Shown: piece after piece, positions 25,643-50,770 of the stretch
Position numbering within the stretch: position 1 is the first letter of the stretch
Layout of the letters: each line of letters opens with the position of its first letter
Assembly: GCF_000422945.1 (NCBI RefSeq)
Contig: NZ_AUHA01000002.1
Coordinates: 1,302,001 to 1,366,000 of the forward strand
From: Daejeonella oryzae DSM 19973
Lineage (GTDB): Bacteria; Bacteroidota; Bacteroidia; Sphingobacteriales; Sphingobacteriaceae
Direction of reading: 5' to 3'
Length of the DNA stretch: 64,000 nucleotides
Program-made: the position numbers and the translations under genes
The notes under the pieces: model-generated
Told to the model about the DNA's origin: nothing
What the model saw: only the letters and a program-made list of their open reading frames with translations
The model's database searches: none

Positions 25643-28600
25643 TTGAAAAACGTTTTTACTTTTTTATTGCTGAAAGTATGCTTTTTCATTGTGCTTTTTG
25701 GCGGAATTGCATCTGCGCAAAATGCTCCTTCTAAGATTGATTCTACTAAACTCATTTATCCTTTCAGGGATGCCAAAACCATTCAATTACGTCCGCCAAG
25801 CGGAATTTTTCTTCCCAATCCGTCCAATATACAGCGAAGCGTAGAGTTTGATCCGGTAACAAAGCAGTATATCATTCGCGAGAAAATCGGTGACCGGTTT
25901 TACCGTGCTCCCCAATATTTAAGCATTGAAGAATATCAGCGTTTTGAAAATCAGCTCATAAAAAAAAATTACTGGCGTGAACTTGCTGATCTTCCTTTAA
26001 GTGAAGCACGGGCTCCTGGCTTTATACCCTCAGTTAAAGTCAACAGCCGCTCATTCGAAAAACTTTTTGGTGGTTCAACAATAGACATTCGTCCGCAGGG
26101 ATCTGCAGAATTAACTTTTTCCGGTCGATTAAACCGGAATGAAAACCCGCTGTTTAACGAGCGGCAGCGAAGTCAGGGAAATTTCGATTTTGATCAGCGG
26201 ATTCAGATGAATGTGGTTGGGCAAATTGGGGAGAAACTCAGAATAACCACCAATTACAATACCGAAGCTCAGTTTGATTTTGAAAATCAGGTAAAACTGG
26301 ATTATACCGGGAAAGATGATGAAATCGTAAAAAAAATAGAAGCCGGAAATGTAAGTCTTCCTTTAAGCTCAACACTTATTACGGGCAGCCAGGCTTTATT
26401 CGGTTTAAAAACACAATTGCAGTTCGGGCGCCTAAATGTAACCAGTGTTTTCTCGCAGCAAAAATCTCAACAGCGTGAAATAACTATTACCAATGGTTCA
26501 CAGCAAAATGATTTCCGCATTTCTGCGGATAATTATGAGGCCAATAAGCATTACTTCCTGGCTCAGTATTTTAGAAATAATTACAATCGTGCGTTAGCTA
26601 ACATCCCAATAATCACTTCCAATATCAATATCACCAAAATTGAAGTATGGATTACAAACCGAACCAACAGCACAGTAGATTCAAGGGATGTTTTAGGATT
26701 AATTGATCTGGGGGAAAACCTTCCTTATAATACAGCACAAATTCAGGGCGGTGCGGCATTTTCTGCTTTGCCTGCCGGCTTTAGCGGCCCGGGATTTCCG
26801 CAGCAATCTAATAACCTTCTTCAAAATCTTCCACCCGGTGCCCGATTAACTAATACGAATGATGCGAATGCGTATTTTCAGGCAAATGGCGGAACTGATA
26901 ATTTTGCTAAACTAACCTATGCCCGTAAACTTACAGATCGTGAATTTACTGTAAACCGGCAGCTGGGTTATATATCATTAAATACTTCGCTAAATGCGGA
27001 TGAGGTTTTGGCGGTGGCATACCGATATACCAATAATGGGGTTGAATATCAGGTAGGCGAATTATCTACAGATATTGCAGTAAACAATGCAACACCTCAG
27101 GTTCTTTTTGTAAAATTATTAAAGAATGAAACGCTCAAAACCAATCTCCCAACCTGGGATTTGATGATGAAGAATATTTATTCTTTAAATGCGTACCAGG
27201 TTAGCCGCACAGATTTCAGGATGAATATTTTTCGGCTCGATGAAAATTCAGGAATAGAAAAACCACAGATTACAGAAGGGGCCAATACCAGCGGACAATT
27301 GTGGCTGCAACTTACCAATCTGGATAATTTAAATCAGCAGAATGACCGTAAACCCGATGGGTATTTCGACTTTATTGAAGGAATTACCATTGATGCACTT
27401 AACGGACGGATTACTTTTCCCATTATAGAACCCTTTGGATCGGATCTAGCCGCCAAATTTAATCCGGTTACCGAACAGAACCTGATTCAGAAGTATGTTT
27501 TTCAGCCGCTGTATGATTCAACTAAAGTTGATGCGCAACAGCTGTTTCAAAAGCTTAACCGATATATAATTCGCGGAACTTATCAATCTCAGGCCGGATC
27601 AGAGTTTCAGCTCAATGCCATCAATATCCCGCAAGGTTCGGTACAGGTTATTTCCGGAACTTTGCCTTTGCAGGAGGGAGCAGATTTTACAGTAGATTAC
27701 AACATAGGCAGGGTGCGGATTTTAAACCAGGCCCTGTTAAATTCAGGTCAGCCTATTCGAATAAAACTTGAAAACAATGAACTTTTTGGTTTGCAGCAGC
27801 GCTCTTTGATAGGATCAAGATTTGATTATCGCTTGAGCGATAAATTGAATCTGGGAGCAACCATAATGAATCTGACTGAAACGCCCCTGACTCAAAAGGT
27901 TAATATCGGTGAAGAGTCAATTTCTAATTCTATATGGGGAATGGATCTTAATTACAGCAGCAATTCGCGTTGGCTGACCCGTATGGTTGATAAAATACCG
28001 TTCATTAATACCCGTGAAATTTCGTCCATTACATTCAGCAGTGAATATGCTAATTTCATTCCCGGTCATCCTTCAGCCCTTAACTTTGCCGGCAGTCGGA
28101 ATGGCGCCAGTTACCTGGATGATTTTGAATCAAGCCGTTCTTTAATTGATATCAAAAGTTCATCTCCATGGCAAATATCCGGCACACCGCAATTATTTCC
28201 TGAGGCGCAGCTGATTAACGATCTGTCATATGGATATAACCGTGCCCGTTTAGCCTACTACAATATTGATCCGATATTTTTTACTTCGGCAAATTCGGCA
28301 ACTCCAGATAATATAAAAGGGAATAAGAACGAATTGTCTAACCATTACGTAAGGGAGATTTTTGAAAGGGAAGTTTTTCCATTTAAGCAATCGGTAACGG
28401 GGCAGCCTTTAATTCTGCCAACCTTTGACCTTGCTTATTATCCTTCCATTCGCGGTCCTTATAATTTTACTACCACAGGATTAAATCCTAACGGAACGTT
28501 AAGCAACCCAAGAAACCGCTGGGGCGGTATTTTCAGGAAACTGGAAACCAATGATTTTGAAGCCCTCAATATTGAGTTTATAGAGATGTGGGTTTTAGAT

Positions 28601-31600
28601 CCATTTATTTACAATCCCAATCGCCAGGGTGGCGACTTGTATTTTAACCTGGGTAATATTTCTGAAGATATTTTAAAAGATGGACGTAAAAGTTTAGAAA
28701 ACGGTTTGCCCGTTGATGGAGATGTTGCCAAAACCGATCAGACAAGCTGGGGCCGTGTGCCAAGACTGCAGCCGGTAATCCAGGCATTTGATAATAATGC
28801 AGGTGCCCGCCAGTTTCAGGATGTTGGAATTGATGGATTAAGCAATAATGATGAGCGCCAACAATTGAATACATTTTTAACGCAGGCTAAAGCACAGTTA
28901 AATGCACAGGCTTCTGCGGCATTAGATGCCGATCCTTCTTCTGATGATTATCAGTATTACCGTGGAAATTTTTATGATCAGCTAAATGCAGGCATTTTAA
29001 AAAGATATGAATTATACAACGGTACAGAAGGAAACTCAAAAACTACCGAGCAATCATTAGAGCAAACAGGAATTGAGAATTCGGCCGCAACACCTTTGCC
29101 TGACGGCGAAGATATTAACCGTGATAATAACTCAACACAGGCAGATGAATATTACCAGTACCGGGTTTCTATACGTCCGCAGGATTTGCAGACTGTGGGA
29201 AGTAATTATATAGCTGATATTGTACCTACCACTGTAAAACTGGCCAACGGTAAGCAGGAAACTGTTCGCTGGATTCAGTTTAAAATTCCACTGGCAGAAT
29301 TTCAACAGAAGGTTGGCAATATTCAGGACTTTAAATCCATCCGTTTTGTGCGCATGTTTATGACTGATTTTGCAGATACAACCGTAATGCGGTTTGCAAA
29401 ACTTCAATTGGTTAGAGGAGAATGGCGCAGATATAATTCTGAGAATAATCCCGGCAAAGTGATTACCGATCCATCATTAATTAATCCGGGTTTGGATAAT
29501 TCGACACTGGAAGTAGGTGCTGTAAACATTGAGGAAAACGGAAAACGTACGCCAATTCCGTATGTAGTTCCTCCGGGAATTGAACGCGAACGTGATATCA
29601 GTAATTTCAGAGGAGATACCCGGCAGAATGAGCAGTCATTGGCTGTAACCGTTAAAAATGTCCGGGATGGGTATGGGAGAGCGGCTTTCAGAACCACTAT
29701 TAATGATTTCAGATCTTACCGAAGAATGGAAATGTTTATCCATGCCGAGGGAGATCAGCTACGGGACAACGATGTAAATGCGTTTATCCGTGTTGGAACA
29801 GATAATCAGGATAATTATTACGAATATGAGCTCCCGTTAAAGGTAACTAATCCGGGTTCTCGTGACCCGTTTGCAATCTGGCCGGATCAAAATAAAATTG
29901 ATCTGGAGATTCGCCTTTTTCAGGAAGCAAAAATTGCCCGTAATAAGGCAACGCTTAATGGTCAGCCTTATCCCATTAATGTTCCATTTGTTTATACAGT
30001 TGGCAGCACTAAAATTACAGTGTTGGGCCAGCCTGATCTGAGTAAAGTTCGGGTCTACATGCTCGGTATTAAAAACCCTTTGCGAACTGCCGCAAATCCC
30101 GGGCTGGATGATGGCTTAGATAAAACCGCACAAATCTGGTTTAATGAACTCCGTTTAACGGATTTTGATGAGCGGGGAGGCTGGGCTGCCACCGCCAGGA
30201 TGAATGCACGCTTAGCTGATTTTGCCGATATTACTGTTTCTGGAAGTAAAAGTACCATCGGGTTTGGCTCTATCGATAGAAGAGTTAGTGAACGAAACCG
30301 TGCGGATGATGTATTGTTTGATGTTTCAACAAGCATGGAGCTGGGTAAATTTTTCCCGGAACGTACGGGATTAAAAGTGCCGATGTTTGTTAATTTCTCT
30401 TCCCAGATTGGAACACCTCAGTATGATCCGCGTACACCCGATCTGGAATTGAAAGCTGCTTTAAAAAGTGCGACAAAACCTGTTCGTGATTCCATTCGTT
30501 TCAATACCGAAGATTATACATCCCGTAAGAGTCTCAATTTTACCAATGTGCGTAAAATCCGAACCAATCCGCAGAGCAGAATTCATTTATGGGATATAGA
30601 AAACTGGAGCGCTACATATGCTTTTAATGAATACAATCACCGCGATTTTATTAATGAAAAGGCTTTGCAAAAAACCTACCGGGCGGGCTTAGCTTATAAT
30701 TACTCTAACCAGCCTAAAGTAATAACTCCATTTGAAAAGCTTATTAAGTCTAAAAATCTGGGATTAATTAAGGATTTTAATTTTAGCCTCCTGCCCTCAG
30801 TTTTAAATTTTCGTATTGATGTAGATCGTTTATATTCTGAAAATACGCTGCGTAATAATGATCCGAACAACTTTCTGCCTATTAATACCAATTTTAATAA
30901 AAATTTCCAGATGTCGCGGTTGTACGGTATCAGCTGGAATTTAACACGATCTATGCAGATAGATCTGAATGCCACCAATTATTCTGTTATTGATGAACCT
31001 GCCGGAAGAATTAACGGAATGGTTCGGGATACTATATGGGAGAACCTAAAAAGATTGGGCCGGACTACCGATTACGGTCATACTTTAAATATTACCTATA
31101 ATGTGCCTATCAATAAAATTCCTGGTTTAGACTGGGTAACTCTTGCTGCCCGTTACGGATCTGATTTTAACTGGAGGGGAGAGCCATTGCTAACATTAAA
31201 TGACCCGAATATTGATTTTGGCAATACCATTCGTAATTCGCGGATACTGCAGCTGAATCCAGCTTTAAGTTTTACTGCACTTTATAATAAAATTGGATTT
31301 ATACGTACTGCGAATGCCCCGGATAATAAAGGGTTTGGAAAATTTTTAGTAAATGCTTTAACCAGTATAAAAACAATTAACGGAGCCTATACCAAAACTG
31401 AAGGAATTTTCCTTCCGGGATATTTGCCGCAAACAGATTTTCTGGGGCAGGATGTGGATGCCAATGCACCGGGCTATGATTTTGTATTCGGCAGTCAGCG
31501 TGATATTCGCGGCCGGGCATTAAATAATGGATGGATTACCCGCGATTCTTTGCAAAACCAGCTCTATATAACCAATTATAAGGAAGATCTGAACTTGAGA

Positions 31601-32692
31601 AGTATTGTTGAGCCATTCCGTGATTTCCGGATTGAACTGACTGCAGTTCGAAGCCGCAATTTTAATTATTCAACTAATTTTAAGTTTTTACCATCATCCA
31701 ATAGTTTCGAAAACTTGAGTCCGGTAACAACCGGAGATTACAGTGTGTCTTACTTTTCATTAAGAACAGCCTTCAGTGAGGAAAATAAAAGCAATAATTC
31801 CTCAAATCTTTTCAGGCAATTTGAAAATAACAGAAATATTATTTCACAGCGATTGGGAGCTCAAAATCCAAATTCTTCCGGCTCGGCGGCCGGATTTGCT
31901 GATGGATACGGCAAAAATTCGCAGGATGTATTAATTGCAGCTTTCTTAGCTGCTTATACCGGCAAAGATGCAAACTCGGTAAGTCTTAGCCGTTTTCCTC
32001 AGGTTCCAATTCCAAACTGGAGAATTACCTATAATGGTTTAACCAAATACGATTTTTTCAGTAACCTGTTTGCTTCCTTTGATTTGAATCATGCATACAG
32101 ATCGACTTATAATGTAAATGGATTTAATTCACTGGTACGATACCAGGAGTCAAACGGATTTGTAAATGTGAGAGATGCAAACGGAGATTTTCTGCCTTTT
32201 TACCAGTTTTCACAGATCACACTTCTTGAGCAGTTTGTTCCGTTGCTGGGTATTGATATGCGGTTGAAAAATAATATAACCACTAATTTTGAATACAGAA
32301 AATCACGGATATTGAGTTTTAGTTTGGCGAATAACCAGCTGGCGCAACAAAAGGAAGATGCAGTTGTGTTCGGTTTTGGATACCGCACCGCGAATTTCCG
32401 TTTTCCTTTTGGATTGTTCCGGGGACTTAAGCTGAATAATGATATGAACTTCAAACTGGATTTTGCATTGGGAGACCGGAAAACGATTATTTACCGTGCC
32501 GATGTAGAAGACGCAGAAGTTTCATCAGGAGCTCAGAATATTACAATAAGACCATCTCTGGATTACGTATTAAATCAGCGCTTTAATATCAGGTTGTTTT
32601 ACGACGGGAATATGACCCGTCCGTATACTTCTCAAACTTTTAATACATCATTCAGTAATTTTGGGGTGAGTTTGAGGTTTACATTGCAGTAG
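25643..32692 (+). CDS. sprA: type 9 secretion outer-membrane translocon protein SprA (Sov)
   Basis: The 2,349-residue protein has a signal peptide (MKNVFTFLLLKVCFFIVLFGGIASAQ), an N-terminal SprA block (GGSTIDIRPQGSAELTF, RMNEN-like RLNRNENPLF, RITTNYNTEAQFDFENQVKL), and continues with beta-rich sequence to a C-terminal barrel strand (FNTSFSNFGVSLRFTLQ). SprA forms the very large single-chain barrel through which T9SS clients cross the outer membrane, and it is needed for gliding in gliding species. Length fits the family. The start is TTG at 25643, as no ATG precedes the signal peptide. The 25-base gap after ruvA suggests one maeB-ruvA-sprA operon. Confidence 0.96.
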   Translation: MKNVFTFLLLKVCFFIVLFGGIASAQNAPSKIDSTKLIYPFRDAKTIQLRPPSGIFLPNPSNIQRSVEFDPVTKQYIIREKIGDRFYRAPQYLSIEEYQRFENQLIKKNYWRELADLPLSEARAPGFIPSVKVNSRSFEKLFGGSTIDIRPQGSAELTFSGRLNRNENPLFNERQRSQGNFDFDQRIQMNVVGQIGEKLRITTNYNTEAQFDFENQVKLDYTGKDDEIVKKIEAGNVSLPLSSTLITGSQALFGLKTQLQFGRLNVTSVFSQQKSQQREITITNGSQQNDFRISADNYEANKHYFLAQYFRNNYNRALANIPIITSNINITKIEVWITNRTNSTVDSRDVLGLIDLGENLPYNTAQIQGGAAFSALPAGFSGPGFPQQSNNLLQNLPPGARLTNTNDANAYFQANGGTDNFAKLTYARKLTDREFTVNRQLGYISLNTSLNADEVLAVAYRYTNNGVEYQVGELSTDIAVNNATPQVLFVKLLKNETLKTNLPTWDLMMKNIYSLNAYQVSRTDFRMNIFRLDENSGIEKPQITEGANTSGQLWLQLTNLDNLNQQNDRKPDGYFDFIEGITIDALNGRITFPIIEPFGSDLAAKFNPVTEQNLIQKYVFQPLYDSTKVDAQQLFQKLNRYIIRGTYQSQAGSEFQLNAINIPQGSVQVISGTLPLQEGADFTVDYNIGRVRILNQALLNSGQPIRIKLENNELFGLQQRSLIGSRFDYRLSDKLNLGATIMNLTETPLTQKVNIGEESISNSIWGMDLNYSSNSRWLTRMVDKIPFINTREISSITFSSEYANFIPGHPSALNFAGSRNGASYLDDFESSRSLIDIKSSSPWQISGTPQLFPEAQLINDLSYGYNRARLAYYNIDPIFFTSANSATPDNIKGNKNELSNHYVREIFEREVFPFKQSVTGQPLILPTFDLAYYPSIRGPYNFTTTGLNPNGTLSNPRNRWGGIFRKLETNDFEALNIEFIEMWVLDPFIYNPNRQGGDLYFNLGNISEDILKDGRKSLENGLPVDGDVAKTDQTSWGRVPRLQPVIQAFDNNAGARQFQDVGIDGLSNNDERQQLNTFLTQAKAQLNAQASAALDADPSSDDYQYYRGNFYDQLNAGILKRYELYNGTEGNSKTTEQSLEQTGIENSAATPLPDGEDINRDNNSTQADEYYQYRVSIRPQDLQTVGSNYIADIVPTTVKLANGKQETVRWIQFKIPLAEFQQKVGNIQDFKSIRFVRMFMTDFADTTVMRFAKLQLVRGEWRRYNSENNPGKVITDPSLINPGLDNSTLEVGAVNIEENGKRTPIPYVVPPGIERERDISNFRGDTRQNEQSLAVTVKNVRDGYGRAAFRTTINDFRSYRRMEMFIHAEGDQLRDNDVNAFIRVGTDNQDNYYEYELPLKVTNPGSRDPFAIWPDQNKIDLEIRLFQEAKIARNKATLNGQPYPINVPFVYTVGSTKITVLGQPDLSKVRVYMLGIKNPLRTAANPGLDDGLDKTAQIWFNELRLTDFDERGGWAATARMNARLADFADITVSGSKSTIGFGSIDRRVSERNRADDVLFDVSTSMELGKFFPERTGLKVPMFVNFSSQIGTPQYDPRTPDLELKAALKSATKPVRDSIRFNTEDYTSRKSLNFTNVRKIRTNPQSRIHLWDIENWSATYAFNEYNHRDFINEKALQKTYRAGLAYNYSNQPKVITPFEKLIKSKNLGLIKDFNFSLLPSVLNFRIDVDRLYSENTLRNNDPNNFLPINTNFNKNFQMSRLYGISWNLTRSMQIDLNATNYSVIDEPAGRINGMVRDTIWENLKRLGRTTDYGHTLNITYNVPINKIPGLDWVTLAARYGSDFNWRGEPLLTLNDPNIDFGNTIRNSRILQLNPALSFTALYNKIGFIRTANAPDNKGFGKFLVNALTSIKTINGAYTKTEGIFLPGYLPQTDFLGQDVDANAPGYDFVFGSQRDIRGRALNNGWITRDSLQNQLYITNYKEDLNLRSIVEPFRDFRIELTAVRSRNFNYSTNFKFLPSSNSFENLSPVTTGDYSVSYFSLRTAFSEENKSNNSSNLFRQFENNRNIISQRLGAQNPNSSGSAAGFADGYGKNSQDVLIAAFLAAYTGKDANSVSLSRFPQVPIPNWRITYNGLTKYDFFSNLFASFDLNHAYRSTYNVNGFNSLVRYQESNGFVNVRDANGDFLPFYQFSQITLLEQFVPLLGIDMRLKNNITTNFEYRKSRILSFSLANNQLAQQKEDAVVFGFGYRTANFRFPFGLFRGLKLNNDMNFKLDFALGDRKTIIYRADVEDAEVSSGAQNITIRPSLDYVLNQRFNIRLFYDGNMTRPYTSQTFNTSFSNFGVSLRFTLQ

Positions 32693-43913: not shown

Positions 43914-44375
43914 TTAGAACTGGGCCAGCATCCAGCTGGTCAATTGCCACATAATATATACGATTGAAATAATAAAAATTGAAAATATAATTATCAGTAT
44001 TGTTATAATTCCTCGTCCGCTTCCTGTGTGTTTTCCTTCCTGATAATGTTCTTTTAATAATCTTAAATTTTTGGTATTGGATTTATACGCAAAATCAAAG
44101 ATGTTACCAATTAATGGAATGGCACCTATAGTTGTATCAACGAGTACGTTTAAAGACATCATAATCAATAACTTTCTGCTTGCCCCGTATTTAGCCATCG
44201 TTGCGATTAAAACAATAGAAACTGCAAAAGTTGAGAGGTTGCCTGCAAATGGAATTAAATTTAAGATTGGATCTAAACCGAATCTAAAGTTTGTACCCGG
44301 GAGGCGAAACTTATCATCCATTAGTTTTGAAACATATTCAATCCATTTAATATTGGAATTATTTACAGTTTGCAT
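43914..44375 (-). CDS. DUF4112 membrane protein
   Basis: From ATG 44375 (MQTVNNSN) the product is 153 residues; a TTG two codons earlier is also in frame. It matches the DUF4112 pattern: LMDDKFRLPGTNFRFGLDPILNLIPFAG, then a membrane helix, NVLVDTTIGAIPLIGNIFDFAYKSNTKNLRLL, and a C-terminal membrane helix. About three hydrophobic segments indicate an inner-membrane protein. The function of the family is unknown. It is convergent with the 107-residue gene. Confidence 0.85.
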   Translation of the reverse strand: MQTVNNSNIKWIEYVSKLMDDKFRLPGTNFRFGLDPILNLIPFAGNLSTFAVSIVLIATMAKYGASRKLLIMMSLNVLVDTTIGAIPLIGNIFDFAYKSNTKNLRLLKEHYQEGKHTGSGRGIITILIIIFSIFIISIVYIMWQLTSWMLAQF

Positions 44376-44381
44376 ATTCAA

Positions 44382-44687: not shown

Positions 44688-46652
44688 TTGAATATTACTA
44701 CCGTTAGCTCCCTGCTTTCTACAATTAACAATTATCAAAAGTCAATTTTTGTATTTGCAGGCCTGCTAATTCTTTCTTGCCAAACCCTACAAGCTCAAAA
44801 TAAAGTTTTGGATAGCTTAAGAATTAAAGCAGAGTTGAAAACAACTCTTAATGATTCAAATAAGGTTATTCTGTTAAATGATATTGCCTATAAATTTTGT
44901 TTTATCAATTTAAATCAGCTTCATAATTATTCGAAAAAAGCTCTTGAATTATCAAAAAGACTTAATTATATAAATGGAATTGCAGGTTCCTACAAAAATA
45001 TAGGGTTGTATTATATGCTCAAGGATGCAAATCCGCTGGCGCTGGATTATTTCGATAAATCATATAAACTTTACAAGAGTGTTAATAACCGGGCAGGTGC
45101 AGTTCGGGCGCTGAATAACAGTGGCTACTATTACTCTGTGATAAAAGACTATGAGGAGGGGATCAGATATTACAGGCTGGCAGAAAGACAGGCCAAAGGT
45201 ATTAAAGAACCCAATTTAAAAGCAATTTGGGTGGGTAATATTGGAAATAATTATGAAGCTCTTGGTCAGCTTGATTCTGCTTATGTTTATTATCAGAGGA
45301 TGATTTCTTTGGCATCTACGAAAGATACAGATTATCTTCTTGGAAGTGCTTATGCGAATTTAGCCTCATATCAATTAAAAAAGGGAAAATATAATCAGGC
45401 GATCCAAATTGCCGAGAAGGTATTTGCATTAAATCAATTAGATGATAATCATCCAAATCAGGAATTATCGGATATTAATATGATTTTGGGTAAAGCTCAT
45501 TTTAAATTGGGCAATTACGAAAAGTCCCGCAAGTTTTTTGAGAAGAGTAATGAAATCGCAAAAAACGTAGAGTATTCTGAAATCATCATCGAAAACTATT
45601 ATAATTTCTACCGTTTGGATTCTTTGGAGGGCGATAGTAAGGCGGCGCTCAAAAACTTCCTGGTTTATTCGCAACTCCGCGATAGTTTAACAAATGCCAA
45701 TAAAAACCGCCGAATTGCTTACTATCAGATAAAATTCCAATCAGAAAAAAGCGAGGCAGAAAATCAGAGATTACGAAAAGAAGAAGAGAAAAATAAAGCC
45801 TACATAAGCAGTCAGCAAACCCGGGTAATAACTTTGGGAGTAGCGGTATTCTTTGTATTAATTGCAGTTTTTATATTAAGCCGTGTTAATCATCGCATGG
45901 AGAGTAAAAATAAGATTATTAAGCAGCAGAATAAAAAGCTTGAAGAGGCCAACCTGGTAAAAAACACCTTGTTTTCTGTTATTGCACATGATCTCAGGAC
46001 GCCATTCTCTCATATTATTCCTCTTCTGGAGATGATAGAAAAAGATCAGATGGATCAGTCGGATTTTAAAGAGCTTGCTCCGCTGATAAAAGTTAATTTT
46101 TTAGATAACTTATTGTTGGTAGATAACCTTCTGTTATGGGCCAAAAGCCAGCTTGAAGGATTTAAGGTTAATCTTCAGCCCTTTAACACCTTTAAACTGG
46201 GAGAGGAGCTGAAGCAGTTTTTTAAGGAGTCTTCATCTCAGAAAAACATTACTATTGAGAATTATATAGATGAAAACACCGGGATTCTTGCAGATAGAGA
46301 AACTATAAAAATCGTATTGAGAAACCTTCTGTCTAATGCTATAAAGTTTACATCAGAAGGTGGTAAGATAAAAATGGAAAGCCGGATTTCTGATGATACT
46401 GCTACAATATCTGTTACAGATACCGGAGTAGGAATAAATCAGAAAGATGTAGAAAACCTTTTTACGCTGATTAATTATACAACTTTGGGTACTTCAAATG
46501 AAAAAGGTACGGGCATGGGACTAAAAATCTGTAAAGATTTTATAGAACTTAACAACGGAACTATACAGGTAGAAAGTGTCAAGGATGTTGGAACCACTTT
46601 TTCGTTTACACTGCCATTTATAAAAGAGGCAGAAAACGCTGCGCTGGTTTAA
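44688..46652 (+). CDS. TPR-domain sensor histidine kinase
   Basis: The 654-residue product has a signal-like N-terminus (IFVFAGLLILSCQTLQAQ), a periplasmic block of TPR helices (about 60-330), a coiled region, one membrane helix (VITLGVAVFFVLIAVFILSRV, about 380-400), then a cytoplasmic HisKA with His434 (SVIAHDLRTPFSHI) and HATPase (NLLSNAIKFTSEGG, DTGVGI, GTGMGLKIC). This layout is common in Bacteroidota. The start is TTG at 44688; no ATG precedes the signal segment. No response regulator is adjacent. The stimulus is unknown. It faces the kinase-like orphan gene convergently, with 20 bases between stops. Confidence 0.92.
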   Translation: MNITTVSSLLSTINNYQKSIFVFAGLLILSCQTLQAQNKVLDSLRIKAELKTTLNDSNKVILLNDIAYKFCFINLNQLHNYSKKALELSKRLNYINGIAGSYKNIGLYYMLKDANPLALDYFDKSYKLYKSVNNRAGAVRALNNSGYYYSVIKDYEEGIRYYRLAERQAKGIKEPNLKAIWVGNIGNNYEALGQLDSAYVYYQRMISLASTKDTDYLLGSAYANLASYQLKKGKYNQAIQIAEKVFALNQLDDNHPNQELSDINMILGKAHFKLGNYEKSRKFFEKSNEIAKNVEYSEIIIENYYNFYRLDSLEGDSKAALKNFLVYSQLRDSLTNANKNRRIAYYQIKFQSEKSEAENQRLRKEEEKNKAYISSQQTRVITLGVAVFFVLIAVFILSRVNHRMESKNKIIKQQNKKLEEANLVKNTLFSVIAHDLRTPFSHIIPLLEMIEKDQMDQSDFKELAPLIKVNFLDNLLLVDNLLLWAKSQLEGFKVNLQPFNTFKLGEELKQFFKESSSQKNITIENYIDENTGILADRETIKIVLRNLLSNAIKFTSEGGKIKMESRISDDTATISVTDTGVGINQKDVENLFTLINYTTLGTSNEKGTGMGLKICKDFIELNNGTIQVESVKDVGTTFSFTLPFIKEAENAALV

Positions 46653-46672: not shown

Positions 46673-47728
46673 TTACAAGTTCATTCTTTTTCCTACTACC
46701 AGGTTTAAAAATTCATATACAATTTGACCCATCGTCTGGCAATTTTTAAAAATCGGAATGTTAAAATGTAAAGACAACTCTAATCCCAGCTGCTCAACTT
46801 TATCTTTAGGAGAAATTTCGTCCTTACACATAACATTAAAAAGGTCGTTCAGTCTGTAATGGGCAGATCGTACCCGGTTAGAAATTAAAGTCCGTTCTTC
46901 CTCCTGATATTGGCGCATAGTAGTTTTGTCCATGTGCTGCATTCCCAGATTCACCAGCTTAATATTCTCTTTAAAGAAATGAGGGAGATAAAGCTTTAAT
47001 TTCCCTTCGTAAGATTGCTGATCAAAATCAATGGCCCTGATTCTGTATTGATTTCCTTCAATGTCTGGGGTTATATCAACCACAAAATTATACGATCGCA
47101 TATCTCCCAATAACCTGACAAAACACCGTTCGTTGAATTTTACGAATTCTTTACTGATTCTGATTTGGTTGAATTTGATATCCTCAAGGTAATGATCAAT
47201 AAAAACATCACCGGGCAAACCCGGTATATGTTCTTCTATTAAGGTATTATCATCTGTTAAATAGGTGATCCGGTTCGGAGACAAAATGTGCTCAAGCTCC
47301 AGGCCGTAAACTCTTGATGCGTCAGCCACTTTTACATAAAAATGGTCGTAGTTATCATTCAGCCTATTAATAATCCGAATGCGAAAGGGTTTTGAGTTTC
47401 CAAAAGTGCAGTAATCTATCCTGGCAACAGATAAGTGCTCCATAACCTCGGTATCGCCATCAGTATTCAGAAGTGCATAAATTTGAGTCAGGCTGGGAAA
47501 TAATTCACGCATTTCTGCTTCATCATAGTATACCGTTAACCACAAAGTATTATTGCCGTCTTTATCCAGTAATGGAGTTTTTAAGTTGAATCTAAGCAGA
47601 TCAGAATACTGAACCGGTAGTTTTGTTTCCCGATCATATTTCAATAAGTATTCCCTCAGATCCGGACAGATGTCATAAAAAATTTTTTTCTTCGATGGAA
47701 CATCAGTTCTTGTGTTTAAATCTTCCAT
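46673..47728 (-). CDS. uncharacterised protein with kinase-like motif series
   Basis: A 351-residue soluble protein that I cannot assign to a named family. The sequence carries, in the right order, the elements of a protein-kinase/APH-like fold: a beta3-type Lys (HFYVKVADA, Lys133), a helix-C-like Glu region (YGLELEHIL, 142-149), a hinge-like segment (LIEEHIPGLPGD, 163-174), a catalytic-loop-like LGDMRSYNFVV with Asp209 and Asn214, and an IDFD motif (Asp234, Asp236) standing for DFG. A helical C-terminus follows. I infer a phosphotransferase of unknown substrate. The ATG is 1 base after the stop of the S9 peptidase gene, so the two are probably translated together. Confidence 0.7.
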   Translation of the reverse strand: MEDLNTRTDVPSKKKIFYDICPDLREYLLKYDRETKLPVQYSDLLRFNLKTPLLDKDGNNTLWLTVYYDEAEMRELFPSLTQIYALLNTDGDTEVMEHLSVARIDYCTFGNSKPFRIRIINRLNDNYDHFYVKVADASRVYGLELEHILSPNRITYLTDDNTLIEEHIPGLPGDVFIDHYLEDIKFNQIRISKEFVKFNERCFVRLLGDMRSYNFVVDITPDIEGNQYRIRAIDFDQQSYEGKLKLYLPHFFKENIKLVNLGMQHMDKTTMRQYQEEERTLISNRVRSAHYRLNDLFNVMCKDEISPKDKVEQLGLELSLHFNIPIFKNCQTMGQIVYEFLNLVVGKRMNL

Positions 47729-47729
47729 G

Positions 47730-49883
47730 CTAATTTATGTATCGTTCAAAAAATTCGAAAATGCGAAGCATTTGATCTATTCGCTGGCGAACATTTCCGG
47801 ACCGAACCAGTTCATGCGTGCCTCCCGGATGCCGGACATATTCAACTGTTTTGCCCTGCACTTTCAGGGATTTATAAAGCATTTCACTTTGAATTACCCC
47901 GGTTCGCAAATCATTTTCTCCATGAAAAATTAGAAACGGAGTATTAATCTGATTCACGTAAGTTAACGGCGACTCACGTTTTAAAATCACATCTATATCA
48001 TCCTGCCAGGGAAATCCTCCGAAATAATTGGGCACAAGCTGCCAGGCATTTCCTTCACCAAAAAATGTTTTCAGATCATACACTCCACGCTGAGCAGATG
48101 CTGCTGCAAAACGTTTGTCATGAGCAATAATCCATGCGGTTAAATATCCGGCATAAGAACCTCCTGTAATGGTGAGTTTGTTTTGATCGGCCCAGCCTTC
48201 GGCAACCGCACCGTCCAGTGCACCCAATACATCTTCTGTTGGTCCCTGGCCCCAGTTGCGGTAATTGCCCCTTAGAAATTCCTCTCCGTAACCTCCGGAT
48301 CCACGTGGATTGGCATAAATTACCCCATATCCCTGGCTGCAAAAATATTGAAACTCGTGCCACATACTTGATTCTCCCGGTCCCCACATGGCAGATGGCC
48401 CACCGTGCATCTGTAAAACCACCGGGTACCTATTATCAGGATTAAATCCTGCAGGTTTCATAATCCAATATTCAACTGTCATTCCTTTGCTGTTGATGTA
48501 CGATTTTTTTTCAGGGAATGAAAGTCTTTTATTTTTAATCCATTCTGAATTAAAAGATGTCAGCTCTTGCGGAGATTTATTGGATAGATCGGCACTGTAG
48601 ATTTCATACGGATTTTGCACCTCCGTTTTTACATATACCAATTTGTTTTTAGAAATATCGTAGCTGCCTGTTCCACTTTCATAATTACTTAATTGCTCCA
48701 CTTTCATGGTCTTCATATTTAAACGATACAACGGAGCCCCGCCATTTGACTGTGCGGTAAAATAAAGAAAGCGTTCATCTGCCGACCATTTAAAACTTCC
48801 TGCACTCCGGTCAAATGGAATTGAAATTGACTTAGCACCTTTTTCTGTGATTTTTAACAGGGCTAATTTTGGGACATTAATGCCCGTAGTTGGACTAAAT
48901 ACATAGCTTAACCAATTTCCTGAGGGTGATAAAACAGGATTGCTGTAGCGGATTTTTTTTTGTGATAAGATTTTTTTTAAGTTGCCGGATTTAACGTTCA
49001 GTGAATATATTTCGCTCTCTTCGCTTCTGTCGGGGTGCAGAAGACTGTCTATGTTTGAAACCAGAATCAGATTATTGCCATCGGCCGAAAATTCTGCACT
49101 TCCGTAGGAATAAAATCCCGAAGTTAATGCACGTGGCTTTGATCCCGGTGTAGCATCTACAACGTAATAATGATTGAATTTTAATTCCGGATCTGTGGCA
49201 GATTCTCCCTGGAAATTTAAATTGGTAAATACTTTTGCTTTTTTGTCTGATTCATTTTTATCCAAATAAGATCTTATTTGCTCTATACTACCATTGGGGT
49301 TTGGTTTTGCCGTATTTCTTAAGTTTTCATTTTGTGAAAATCCGGGTTTCTCCAAAGGCCATATGACATCAGTTTTTCTGCTGAAAGCAGCTGTGTCTTT
49401 AAGCATCTCATTTAAAGAAAGTGTTGTAGAAAAAAGCAATTTTTTTCCATCCGGAGACCATTTCGGAGCGTTTGCGCCATACTTATAATCGGTAATTTGT
49501 ATCGGCTCGCCTCCGGCCATATCCATTACAAATATTTGCGACTTGTTTTTTACTGATCTTACAAATGCAATTCGCTGATCATCCGGAGACCAGGCCGGTT
49601 GGCTGGCACCGGAAATTCCGGAAGTTAATGCCCTGGTATTTTTCCCTTTGTCAAGTAATGACATGTAAATCTGACTGCGGTAAGTATATTCTCCCTCAAT
49701 TTCTTCATTGTCAAGAATAGCGTTAATGGTATAAATAACTCTGGTTCCATCGTGTGAAATAGAAACTGAACCCAGTTGTTTTATAAGTGTTAGGTCAGTT
49801 ACCTGAACCGGCTGGGAGCCTGTTTGTGCAATAGAAGTTATGGAAATAATCAGTAAAAGGGCAGTAGTTAAAATAGATTTCAT
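47730..49883 (-). CDS. S9-family prolyl oligopeptidase-like peptidase
   Basis: The 717-residue product begins MKSILTTALLLIISITSIAQ, a signal peptide, so it is periplasmic or outer-membrane-associated. Residues about 30-430 form a beta-propeller of WD40-like PD40 repeats (SRDGTRVIYT-like, PAWSPDDQRIAFV, PKWSPDGKKLLF). The C-terminal alpha/beta hydrolase has Ser in GGSYAGYLT, Asp in HGENDLRTGV and His in HPGGTHELVR. The ATG at 49883 is used because the 36-residue upstream extension would bury the signal peptide. It is followed after 1 base by the kinase-like gene. Confidence 0.93.
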   Translation of the reverse strand: MKSILTTALLLIISITSIAQTGSQPVQVTDLTLIKQLGSVSISHDGTRVIYTINAILDNEEIEGEYTYRSQIYMSLLDKGKNTRALTSGISGASQPAWSPDDQRIAFVRSVKNKSQIFVMDMAGGEPIQITDYKYGANAPKWSPDGKKLLFSTTLSLNEMLKDTAAFSRKTDVIWPLEKPGFSQNENLRNTAKPNPNGSIEQIRSYLDKNESDKKAKVFTNLNFQGESATDPELKFNHYYVVDATPGSKPRALTSGFYSYGSAEFSADGNNLILVSNIDSLLHPDRSEESEIYSLNVKSGNLKKILSQKKIRYSNPVLSPSGNWLSYVFSPTTGINVPKLALLKITEKGAKSISIPFDRSAGSFKWSADERFLYFTAQSNGGAPLYRLNMKTMKVEQLSNYESGTGSYDISKNKLVYVKTEVQNPYEIYSADLSNKSPQELTSFNSEWIKNKRLSFPEKKSYINSKGMTVEYWIMKPAGFNPDNRYPVVLQMHGGPSAMWGPGESSMWHEFQYFCSQGYGVIYANPRGSGGYGEEFLRGNYRNWGQGPTEDVLGALDGAVAEGWADQNKLTITGGSYAGYLTAWIIAHDKRFAAASAQRGVYDLKTFFGEGNAWQLVPNYFGGFPWQDDIDVILKRESPLTYVNQINTPFLIFHGENDLRTGVIQSEMLYKSLKVQGKTVEYVRHPGGTHELVRSGNVRQRIDQMLRIFEFFERYIN

Positions 49884-50019
49884 GTTATCGAATTGCTTTT
49901 TGCAGGTAATATATCTTAGTTTTTTAACTGTTTTTAGCCCAGTCGGTTCATTTAAACGCTGGTGATTCAGTTTAAAAATTGCAGATTCCAAGATACAGAT
50001 TTACGTGAAATCGGAGCAT

Positions 50020-50068: not shown

Positions 50069-50770
50069 TTATTTTAATTCAAATACCGTACGCATCTGGT
50101 AATTTAATTTGATTTTTTTAAAGTCTATTTCCGGCATTGAACTTACTTCACTAAGTGCATCAGATTTCATCATTACATTTGATCGATACATAGGTTGAGG
50201 GTAATATTCATTATTTATTTCCTGAATATCTATTGCTCCCCCAATTTTTTCTCCAATAGATTCTGCAAGCAGTGAAGCTTTGGCTTTAGCCGCTTGTAAA
50301 GCTTTAATTTTTAATTCTGATTTTAAGGATTCGATTTTAGAATAATCATAGCTTTCAATATTGCTGTACTCAATTCCTTTTGGATCAACTGCACTCATAA
50401 TCTGATTGAACTTTGTAAGATCAGTTACTTTAATCCGGTATTGTTTTTTCGCCAGGAAATCAGGATTTTTCTTTTTATCCCAATAATAATTAAAACTCGA
50501 AATATTGTTAATCATGAAGTTTTCTTTCGGAATACCTGCATTTAGAACTGCAGTCTGGAGTTGTCTTTCCAGGTCTTCTATCTCTATTTTTTTCTTACTG
50601 TTATTATCTTTAAAATATTCTTTCAAAGATATTCCTATATAAATAATATCCGGTGTTACTTCGGCTTCTGAAGAGCCGGTTACTTCAATTTTTCTGCGGT
50701 TATCTATATTTTGGGAAAATGCCGTAAGTGCAAATACACTAAGGAAAGCTGTAATTAGTAAACTTTTCAT
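50069..50770 (-). CDS. SIMPL domain (DUF541) protein
   Basis: The 233-residue product has a signal peptide (MKSLLITAFLSVFALTAFS) and the SIMPL pattern: RRKIEVTGSSEAEVTPDIIYIGI, a central QLQTAVLNAGIPKENF helix, and ALQAAKAKASLLAESIGEKIGGAIDI near residue 160. SIMPL proteins of Gram-negative bacteria are periplasmic, with oligomeric or stress-related roles that are poorly defined. It is monocistronic, with its own terminator, and is divergent from the ethylene-receptor-like kinase gene. Confidence 0.88.
   Translation of the reverse strand: MKSLLITAFLSVFALTAFSQNIDNRRKIEVTGSSEAEVTPDIIYIGISLKEYFKDNNSKKKIEIEDLERQLQTAVLNAGIPKENFMINNISSFNYYWDKKKNPDFLAKKQYRIKVTDLTKFNQIMSAVDPKGIEYSNIESYDYSKIESLKSELKIKALQAAKAKASLLAESIGEKIGGAIDIQEINNEYYPQPMYRSNVMMKSDALSEVSSMPEIDFKKIKLNYQMRTVFELK

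Follow-up and report, generated by a model that had tools for sequence, protein, structure and literature searches.

The stretch of DNA considered here (the window) comprises 64,000 nucleotides of the 3.45-Mb genome of Daejeonella oryzae DSM 19973 (C1:1302001-1366000). On its minus strand, at positions 46673-47728, analysis of open reading frames (ORFs) places a gene of 351 codons with an ATG start; frame 1 of the plus strand is full of stops across the same interval. A single base (47729) lies between this ATG and the stop of an upstream ORF for an S9 peptidase (47730-49991). The ORF and its spacing are as described in the initial annotation of the window, to which we add the strand. Our preferred reading, to which we assign a probability of about two in three, is that the product of this gene is a cytosolic phosphotransferase that stands alone, is catalytically competent and has a PI3/PI4-kinase-like kinase domain, and that it belongs to an undescribed family widespread in Bacteroidota. 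The features of the gene that bear on this reading are as follows.

46673-47728, minus strand: gene for a predicted PI3K-fold kinase-like protein of 351 amino acids; ORF with 163 distinct homologues; AlphaFold (AF2) model with predicted local distance difference test (pLDDT) 85.9 and predicted template modelling score (pTM) 0.85
47381-47410, minus strand: beta1-beta2 turn, proposed ATP loop, residues 107-116 (CTFGNSKPFR), from model and alignment; coordinates computed from the ORF
47312-47332, minus strand: beta3 Lys133 followed by D136 and R139, residues 133-139 (KVADASR), in 163/163 members; compare K-x-G-D-D-L-R of PI3K/PI4K
47291-47293, minus strand: E146, proposed helix-C glutamate, in 163/163; helix 137-149 in the model
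47219-47236, minus strand: predicted hinge after beta5, residues 165-170 (EEHIPG), with E165, H167 and G170 invariant, from model and alignment
47087-47107, minus strand: putative catalytic loop, residues 208-214 (GDMRSYN), with D209 the proposed catalytic Asp and N214 a proposed Mg2+ ligand, from the alignment
47018-47032, minus strand: putative DFG equivalent, residues 233-237 (IDFDQ), with D234 a proposed Mg2+ ligand; D234, F235, D236 and Q237 in 163/163

Conservation of the proposed active-site residues

The alignment was drawn from 201 sequences, those of the window and of 200 further loci. A family match was present in 199, and removal of identical copies and of pieces shorter than 250 amino acids left 163 members, no two of which are 99% or more identical and the most distant of which is 41% identical to the window protein. 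In these 163 members 33 positions are invariant, among them K133, D136, R139, E146, E165, H167, G208, D209, M210, N214, D234, F235, D236 and Q237. The initial annotation had pointed to K133, to EEHIPG (165-170), to LGDMRSYN with D209 and N214, and to IDFD with D234 and D236, all of which we find at the positions it gave; the invariance among homologues that it proposed to check for Lys133, Asp209, Asn214 and Asp234 holds in 163 of 163. That K133, D209, N214, D234 and D236 are kept in every member is conservation far beyond chance.

The residue set of the protein-kinase-like (PKL) superfamily, namely a beta3 Lys, a helix-C Glu, a catalytic Asp, an Asn five positions on and a Mg-binding Asp, occurs in that order in all 163 members. 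E144, present in 162, is an alternative candidate for the helix-C glutamate, and position 211, within the putative catalytic loop, is Arg in 135 members and His in 28. In the proposed ATP loop C107, N111, P114 and R116 are invariant, G110 is found in 140 members and replaced by Ala in 23, and the glycine-rich pattern is absent.

Family searches and cellular location

The protein had been described as unannotated and without a named family, and our searches agree. It matched no Pfam family at E<=1, and its single NCBIfam match, at 11.8 bits against a cut-off of 325 bits, is meaningless. When 95 members were scanned at E<=10, no recurrent kinase family appeared among the families listed (the best 25 of 47 from Pfam and the best 25 of 29 from NCBIfam); one member gave a stray NCBIfam match to FomB phosphate kinase (E 0.023). 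Searches of PDB sequences at E<=10 returned no match to the protein or to a profile of 31 homologues, and a search of the open-licence literature found no paper on the family in the titles and abstract openings of the results listed. No Pfam or NCBIfam model covers the family in the members tested, and it has no family name. We refer to the protein as cytosolic because it contains no hydrophobic segment, the highest 19-residue Kyte-Doolittle mean being 0.63.

Predicted fold

Two members were modelled with AlphaFold: the window protein, from a 31-row alignment, with the scores given above, and L180, a protein from another class that is 41% identical to it, from a 95-row alignment (pLDDT 91.8, pTM 0.89). 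Both models show the kinase order of elements, with beta1-beta3 (K133 in beta3), helix C (137-149), beta4-beta5, the hinge, and helices D and E, followed by the catalytic loop, a two-stranded sheet, the D-F-x site and further helices. The initial annotation had suggested structure prediction with a Foldseek search, and had expected an APH/protein-kinase-like fold. As far as computation goes, a two-lobed PKL fold is confirmed in both models.

The top Foldseek match in the PDB was Drosophila Vps34 for both models (E 5.1e-6 for the window model and 3.7e-5 for L180), with 104 and 6 matches, respectively, at E<=0.001. We refined these comparisons with VIA-align, which realigns only the top 1000 Foldseek chains (974 and 975 were realigned) and of which the best 50 entries were listed. 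For both models all 50 were PI3K, PI4K or PIKK structures. The best for the window model was PI4KIIIbeta (8q6g; Z 13.1, root-mean-square deviation (rmsd) 3.9, 258 residues aligned), with a Z of 11.5 at rank 50, and the best for L180 was VPS34 (7rsj; Z 13.7, rmsd 4.4, 281 aligned), with 11.2 at rank 50. Matches to PI3/PI4 kinases and PIKKs spanned 245-294 residues in the two models, and the scores of the PIKK protein kinases differed from those of the lipid kinases by no more than about 1-2 Z. HipA and APH chains were absent from the best 50 rows of both models, which excludes neither fold. In a library of viral structures, generic protein kinases came top and one viral PI3-kinase was found at rank 34. 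By these models, the nearest solved folds appear to be those of PI3K, PI4K and PIKK, not APH; the PI3/PI4 lipid-kinase fold is best known from animals and yeast.

Relation to known kinase families

The likeness to the PI3/PI4 kinases and PIKKs (PF00454; Vps34, PI4KIIIbeta, mTOR, ATM/Tel1, SMG1) extends from the predicted fold to partial motifs and a glycine-poor ATP loop. In the PDB letters of VPS34, p110 gamma and PI4K beta, beta3 is followed by F-K-H-G-D-D-L-R-Q-D or V-K-C-G-D-D-L-R-Q-E, and the later sites read D-R-H-x-x-N and I-D-F-G. The K-x-x-D-x-x-R, D-M-[RH]-x-x-N and IDF of the present family resemble K-x-G-D-D-L-R, D-R-H-x-x-N and IDFG, and we regard these shared letters as suggestive. 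PMC7619004 describes the ATP loop of the PI3K superfamily as mostly lacking glycines, the activation loop as shorter, and helix F of eukaryotic protein kinases (ePKs) as missing; the glycine-poor beta1-beta2 turn of our family fits that description. The spacing from D209 to D234 is 25 in the window protein as against 18 in VPS34, counted from the PDB letters, and the family differs from PI3K-type enzymes in being bacterial and small, at about 350 amino acids. A protein of that size has no room for the C2, helical or FAT regions found in the eukaryotic enzymes.

Other kinase families were considered as well. The HipA/HipT Ser/Thr kinases (PF07804) are likewise bacterial and of the protein-kinase-like superfamily, but show no sequence match to the family in the lists for 95 members or by hhalign. 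An adjacent putative antitoxin gene is a criterion used for HipA kinases in PMC8262856; in our family we noticed no HipB-type antitoxin or recurrent small partner gene among the listed neighbour groups, few of whose neighbours were annotated. HipA_C (PF07804) matched in 13 of 26 related genomes and had no match in the window's genome, whose one APH (PF01636) match lies elsewhere (C1:1405908-1406003). By hhalign, comparisons with ten APH proteins (E 0.24) and twelve HipA proteins (E 0.22) were not significant (Prob 0.2-0.3%). Lani_1194/NoeA, described in the Legionella pan-kinome paper PMC9758233, is another bacterial kinase-fold family that was recognised recently and that has homologues among the Flavobacteriales; the same description sets it apart, with an Arg in place of the catalytic Lys and a methyltransferase domain in 94% of homologues, whereas in our family the Lys is invariant and no Pfam domain was found. 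That Legionella survey also mentions phosphatidylinositol-kinase-like proteins of bacterial origin, and a survey of microbial kinases treats PI3K as a eukaryote-specific family similar to other kinases only in key motifs (PMC1821047).

Several observations count against assigning the family to a competent PI3/PI4-kinase-like phosphotransferase. In DDLRQD it does not keep the second Asp, the Gln or the final Asp/Glu; it also lacks the Arg of DRH and the Gly of DFG. PF00454 was not among the families listed for the 95 members at E<=10, and hhalign gave no significant score against three PI3K/PI4K pieces (Prob 0.2%, E 0.29), doing no better there than against APH or HipA. The Vps34 TM-scores from Foldseek were low (0.38 and 0.34 of the query), and below Vps34 the lists held mostly ordinary protein kinases, also at low TM, with Bud32 reaching 0.44 of the target. 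A best VIA-align Z of 7-8 is typical without a clear match, but mostly helical models can reach 13-14 through a common arrangement alone; both of ours are mixed, with a helical C-lobe. Because only Foldseek candidates were compared and the best 50 entries listed, other bacterial kinase folds remain compatible with the models.

The hhalign alignment to PI3K, non-significant as it was, still paired DMRSYN with DRHLDN and IDFD with IDFG. Sequence profiles do not separate PI3K, APH and HipA, and by sequence the family cannot be filed in PF00454, which had no match in the window's genome at E<=0.01. Weak PF00454 matches occurred at two loci in relatives: a 264-codon ORF in a same-genus genome (L159:1135-1929), which by eye looks HipA-like rather than a member of the present family, and L160, where none of the ORFs listed was kinase-like. 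On balance, the family is a new one inside a known superfamily; it is probably folded like a PI3K-type kinase, and it may work like one.

Distribution of the family

A family match occurs once each in 31 of 60 related genomes, a set that contains the window's own. In an even sample of 395 genomes across the phylum the family is found in 99 genomes and in 51 of 170 genera, both inside and outside the window's class. The gene is full-length in 98 of these carriers, among which we kept three whose match included a stop that proved to be the normal terminal stop. In the remaining carrier (G301:C1:3158145-3158407) it consists of two short fragments, each with a stop, an apparent case of gene decay. 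The gene is nearly always single-copy, the exception in this sample being genome G145, with two full-length, divergent copies (L165 and L166; E 1.2e-148 and 9.2e-113). Longer open frames at L117 (521 amino acids) and L175 (genome G283, 645 residues) may reflect gene fusions or start codons called too far upstream. When one genome per species was scanned, at least 590 relatives were identified, and the best 80 of 590, at 55-79% identity, are all titled Bacteroidota.

The gene was also considered as a mobile or defence gene, and this idea was rejected. Plasmid and phage records held no match to the window protein, none of 31 pattern matches in viral contigs was confirmed as belonging to the family, PADLOC gave a defence assignment for none of three members, and PHROGs returned only chance-level matches. 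As far as seen, the gene is chromosomal; the collections searched gave no hint that it is mobile, and its occurrence is patchy between families.

Gene neighbourhood

We compared 139 neighbourhoods of the gene, 135 of them with a gene on either side; a few share a contig that was entered under two locus names, and recurrent neighbour groups were named by a Pfam search of one member each. The following features surround the gene in the window or recur beside it elsewhere.

47730-49991, minus strand: S9 (prolyl oligopeptidase) peptidase ORF, 753 codons (PF00326, E 1e-43); not a conserved partner
50069-50770, minus strand: SIMPL/DUF541 gene (PF04402), one gene further upstream than the S9 gene
43914-44381, minus strand: DUF4112 gene (PF13430); direct downstream neighbour of the kinase-like gene in L031, L032/L049 and L054
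Other loci, upstream of the kinase-like gene: bshA-type gene in L161, L162, L163, L167, L171-L174 and L198-L200

The initial annotation had coupled the protein to the secreted peptidase, and a functional pairing of the two is not supported. An S9 gene adjoins the kinase-like gene in the window only, among the 139 neighbourhoods; eight other loci contain distant S9-like ORFs (25-33% identity) some 3.6-6.3 kb from it. At E<=1e-100, a cut-off below which weaker S9 relatives went unlisted, the window's peptidase was found in a single genome, its own, among 20 from the genus. With one base between them, the two genes are probably co-transcribed in the window, and a conserved coupling was rejected; the adjacency is best read as a local accident of this genome.

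No conserved operon partner was found phylum-wide, recurrent neighbours being lineage-specific, and in 65 of 135 neighbourhoods the gene has no same-strand neighbour within 60 bp. SIMPL/DUF541 homologues are the direct upstream neighbour in seven of the ten loci holding that group, and the order SIMPL/DUF541, kinase-like gene, DUF4112 occurs in L031, L032/L049 (D. lutea) and L054 (Pedobacter cryophilus). The orthologue from D. lutea DSM 22385 (L049) is 79% identical. In the window this order is interrupted by the S9 gene and by a TPR histidine kinase gene (44688-46652, plus strand; HATPase_c, with HisKA just under the cut-off) that stands between the kinase-like gene and DUF4112; because the latter two are adjacent in L031, L049 and L054, the TPR histidine kinase looks like a lineage-specific insertion. 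Elsewhere, on contigs titled mostly Chitinophagaceae or Bacteroidetes, a Peripla_BP_2 protein is encoded at -1 in 16 loci, and a CBS-domain PALP enzyme and a class II aldolase also recur; seven loci of Sediminibacterium and its relatives have a DUF2130 group at -1.

Outside the window's class, 11 of the 139 neighbourhoods, from 7 genera, have a bshA-type gene at -1 on the same strand. The gap to the kinase-like gene is 1-86 bp in ten of these, the eleventh being blurred by an overlong ORF call, and both bshA-type genes tested matched TIGR03999 (E 2e-173 and 1.5e-162). In eight of the 11 loci an MBL-fold gene, glyoxalase II-like but under the cut-off in the one tested, follows on the opposite strand. 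Elsewhere in the window, a 2349-codon ORF (25643-32692, plus strand) matches SprA_N (PF14349, motility related/secretion protein).

Substrate and alternative explanations

If the protein is a kinase, a cellular protein seems to us its most likely substrate, with the fold used as in PIKKs or HipA, a preference that we hold at somewhat under even odds. A small metabolite comes second and is more doubtful still, and an inositol lipid, the least likely, would surprise us. The strongest competitor to our preferred reading draws on the second of these. A small-molecule kinase, its metabolite perhaps tied to low-molecular-weight thiol (bacillithiol) metabolism, would account for the closely spaced bshA-type genes, and BshC is present in all 99 carriers; however, the bshA link is confined to loci outside the window's class, and BshC is found in 384 of the 395 genomes (Fisher p 0.07, a rough value, as are all Fisher p-values here, since the genomes are related), so nearly universal that the bacillithiol overlap says little. 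We consider this explanation improbable, at perhaps one chance in a handful or slightly better. A phosphoinositide lipid kinase would agree with the identity of the best structural matches, Vps34 and PI4K, which are lipid kinases, but PIKK protein kinases score nearly as well. Moreover, inositol-1-phosphate synthase has no match in the window's genome and is not enriched in carriers (16 of 99, against 46 of 296 other genomes; Fisher p 0.87), and for this reason, inositol uptake aside, inositol lipids are unlikely; we judge such an enzyme very unlikely.

The D-x(4)-N and IDFD spacing of APH motifs is one that the window protein fits, and an APH-like small-molecule kinase would explain it. The Pfam families listed for the 95 scanned members at E<=10 do not include APH (no exclusion in itself), the ten-protein hhalign comparison gave no significant signal, and PI3K-type chains fill the best 50 refined rows, which leaves this decidedly unlikely. 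A pseudokinase, or another transferase on the same fold (AMPylation, glutamylation), is unlikely but less so: protein-kinase-like folds with non-kinase activities are described in PMC10870513, and the family has Asp-Gln after DF where PI3K has Gly, against which stands the fact that all 163 aligned members retain the catalytic residues found in true kinases. As for a joint module of exported S9 peptidase and cytosolic kinase, the one-base spacing and probable co-transcription in the window are set against adjacency in one of 139 neighbourhoods and a peptidase found in one of 20 genus genomes, and we give it hardly any credence.

Proposed mechanism and significance

Kinase activity, cytosolic location and the roles of individual residues are points that we infer rather than have shown directly. 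If the phosphotransferase reading is correct, ATP would lie between the lobes, under the glycine-poor ATP loop (107-116) and against the hinge at E165-H167. K133, held by E146, would bind the phosphates, N214 and D234 would hold Mg2+, and D209 would orient the acceptor hydroxyl, and D136 and R139 would take the roles that the first Asp and the Arg have in the K-x-G-D-D-L-R of PI3K/PI4K. A bolder proposal, which we offer tentatively and think somewhat more likely wrong than right, is that an ancient and undescribed branch of the PI3K superfamily, made up of a single domain, exists in Bacteroidota; as an active kinase it would signal through phosphorylation of a cellular protein (or a metabolite) without inositol lipids, which would make it a minimal relative of Vps34, PI4K and mTOR.

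The interest of the family lies in an active site that is untouched in all 163 aligned members, in its wide range and in its want of a name. PI3K-type kinases have mostly been studied as large, many-domain eukaryotic enzymes; a small family, present in one of every four genomes sampled from a large phylum, would offer a simple model for the PI3K-type fold. It would also give a name to at least 590 genes and, if the kinase reading is true, a new bacterial phosphorylation reaction to map.
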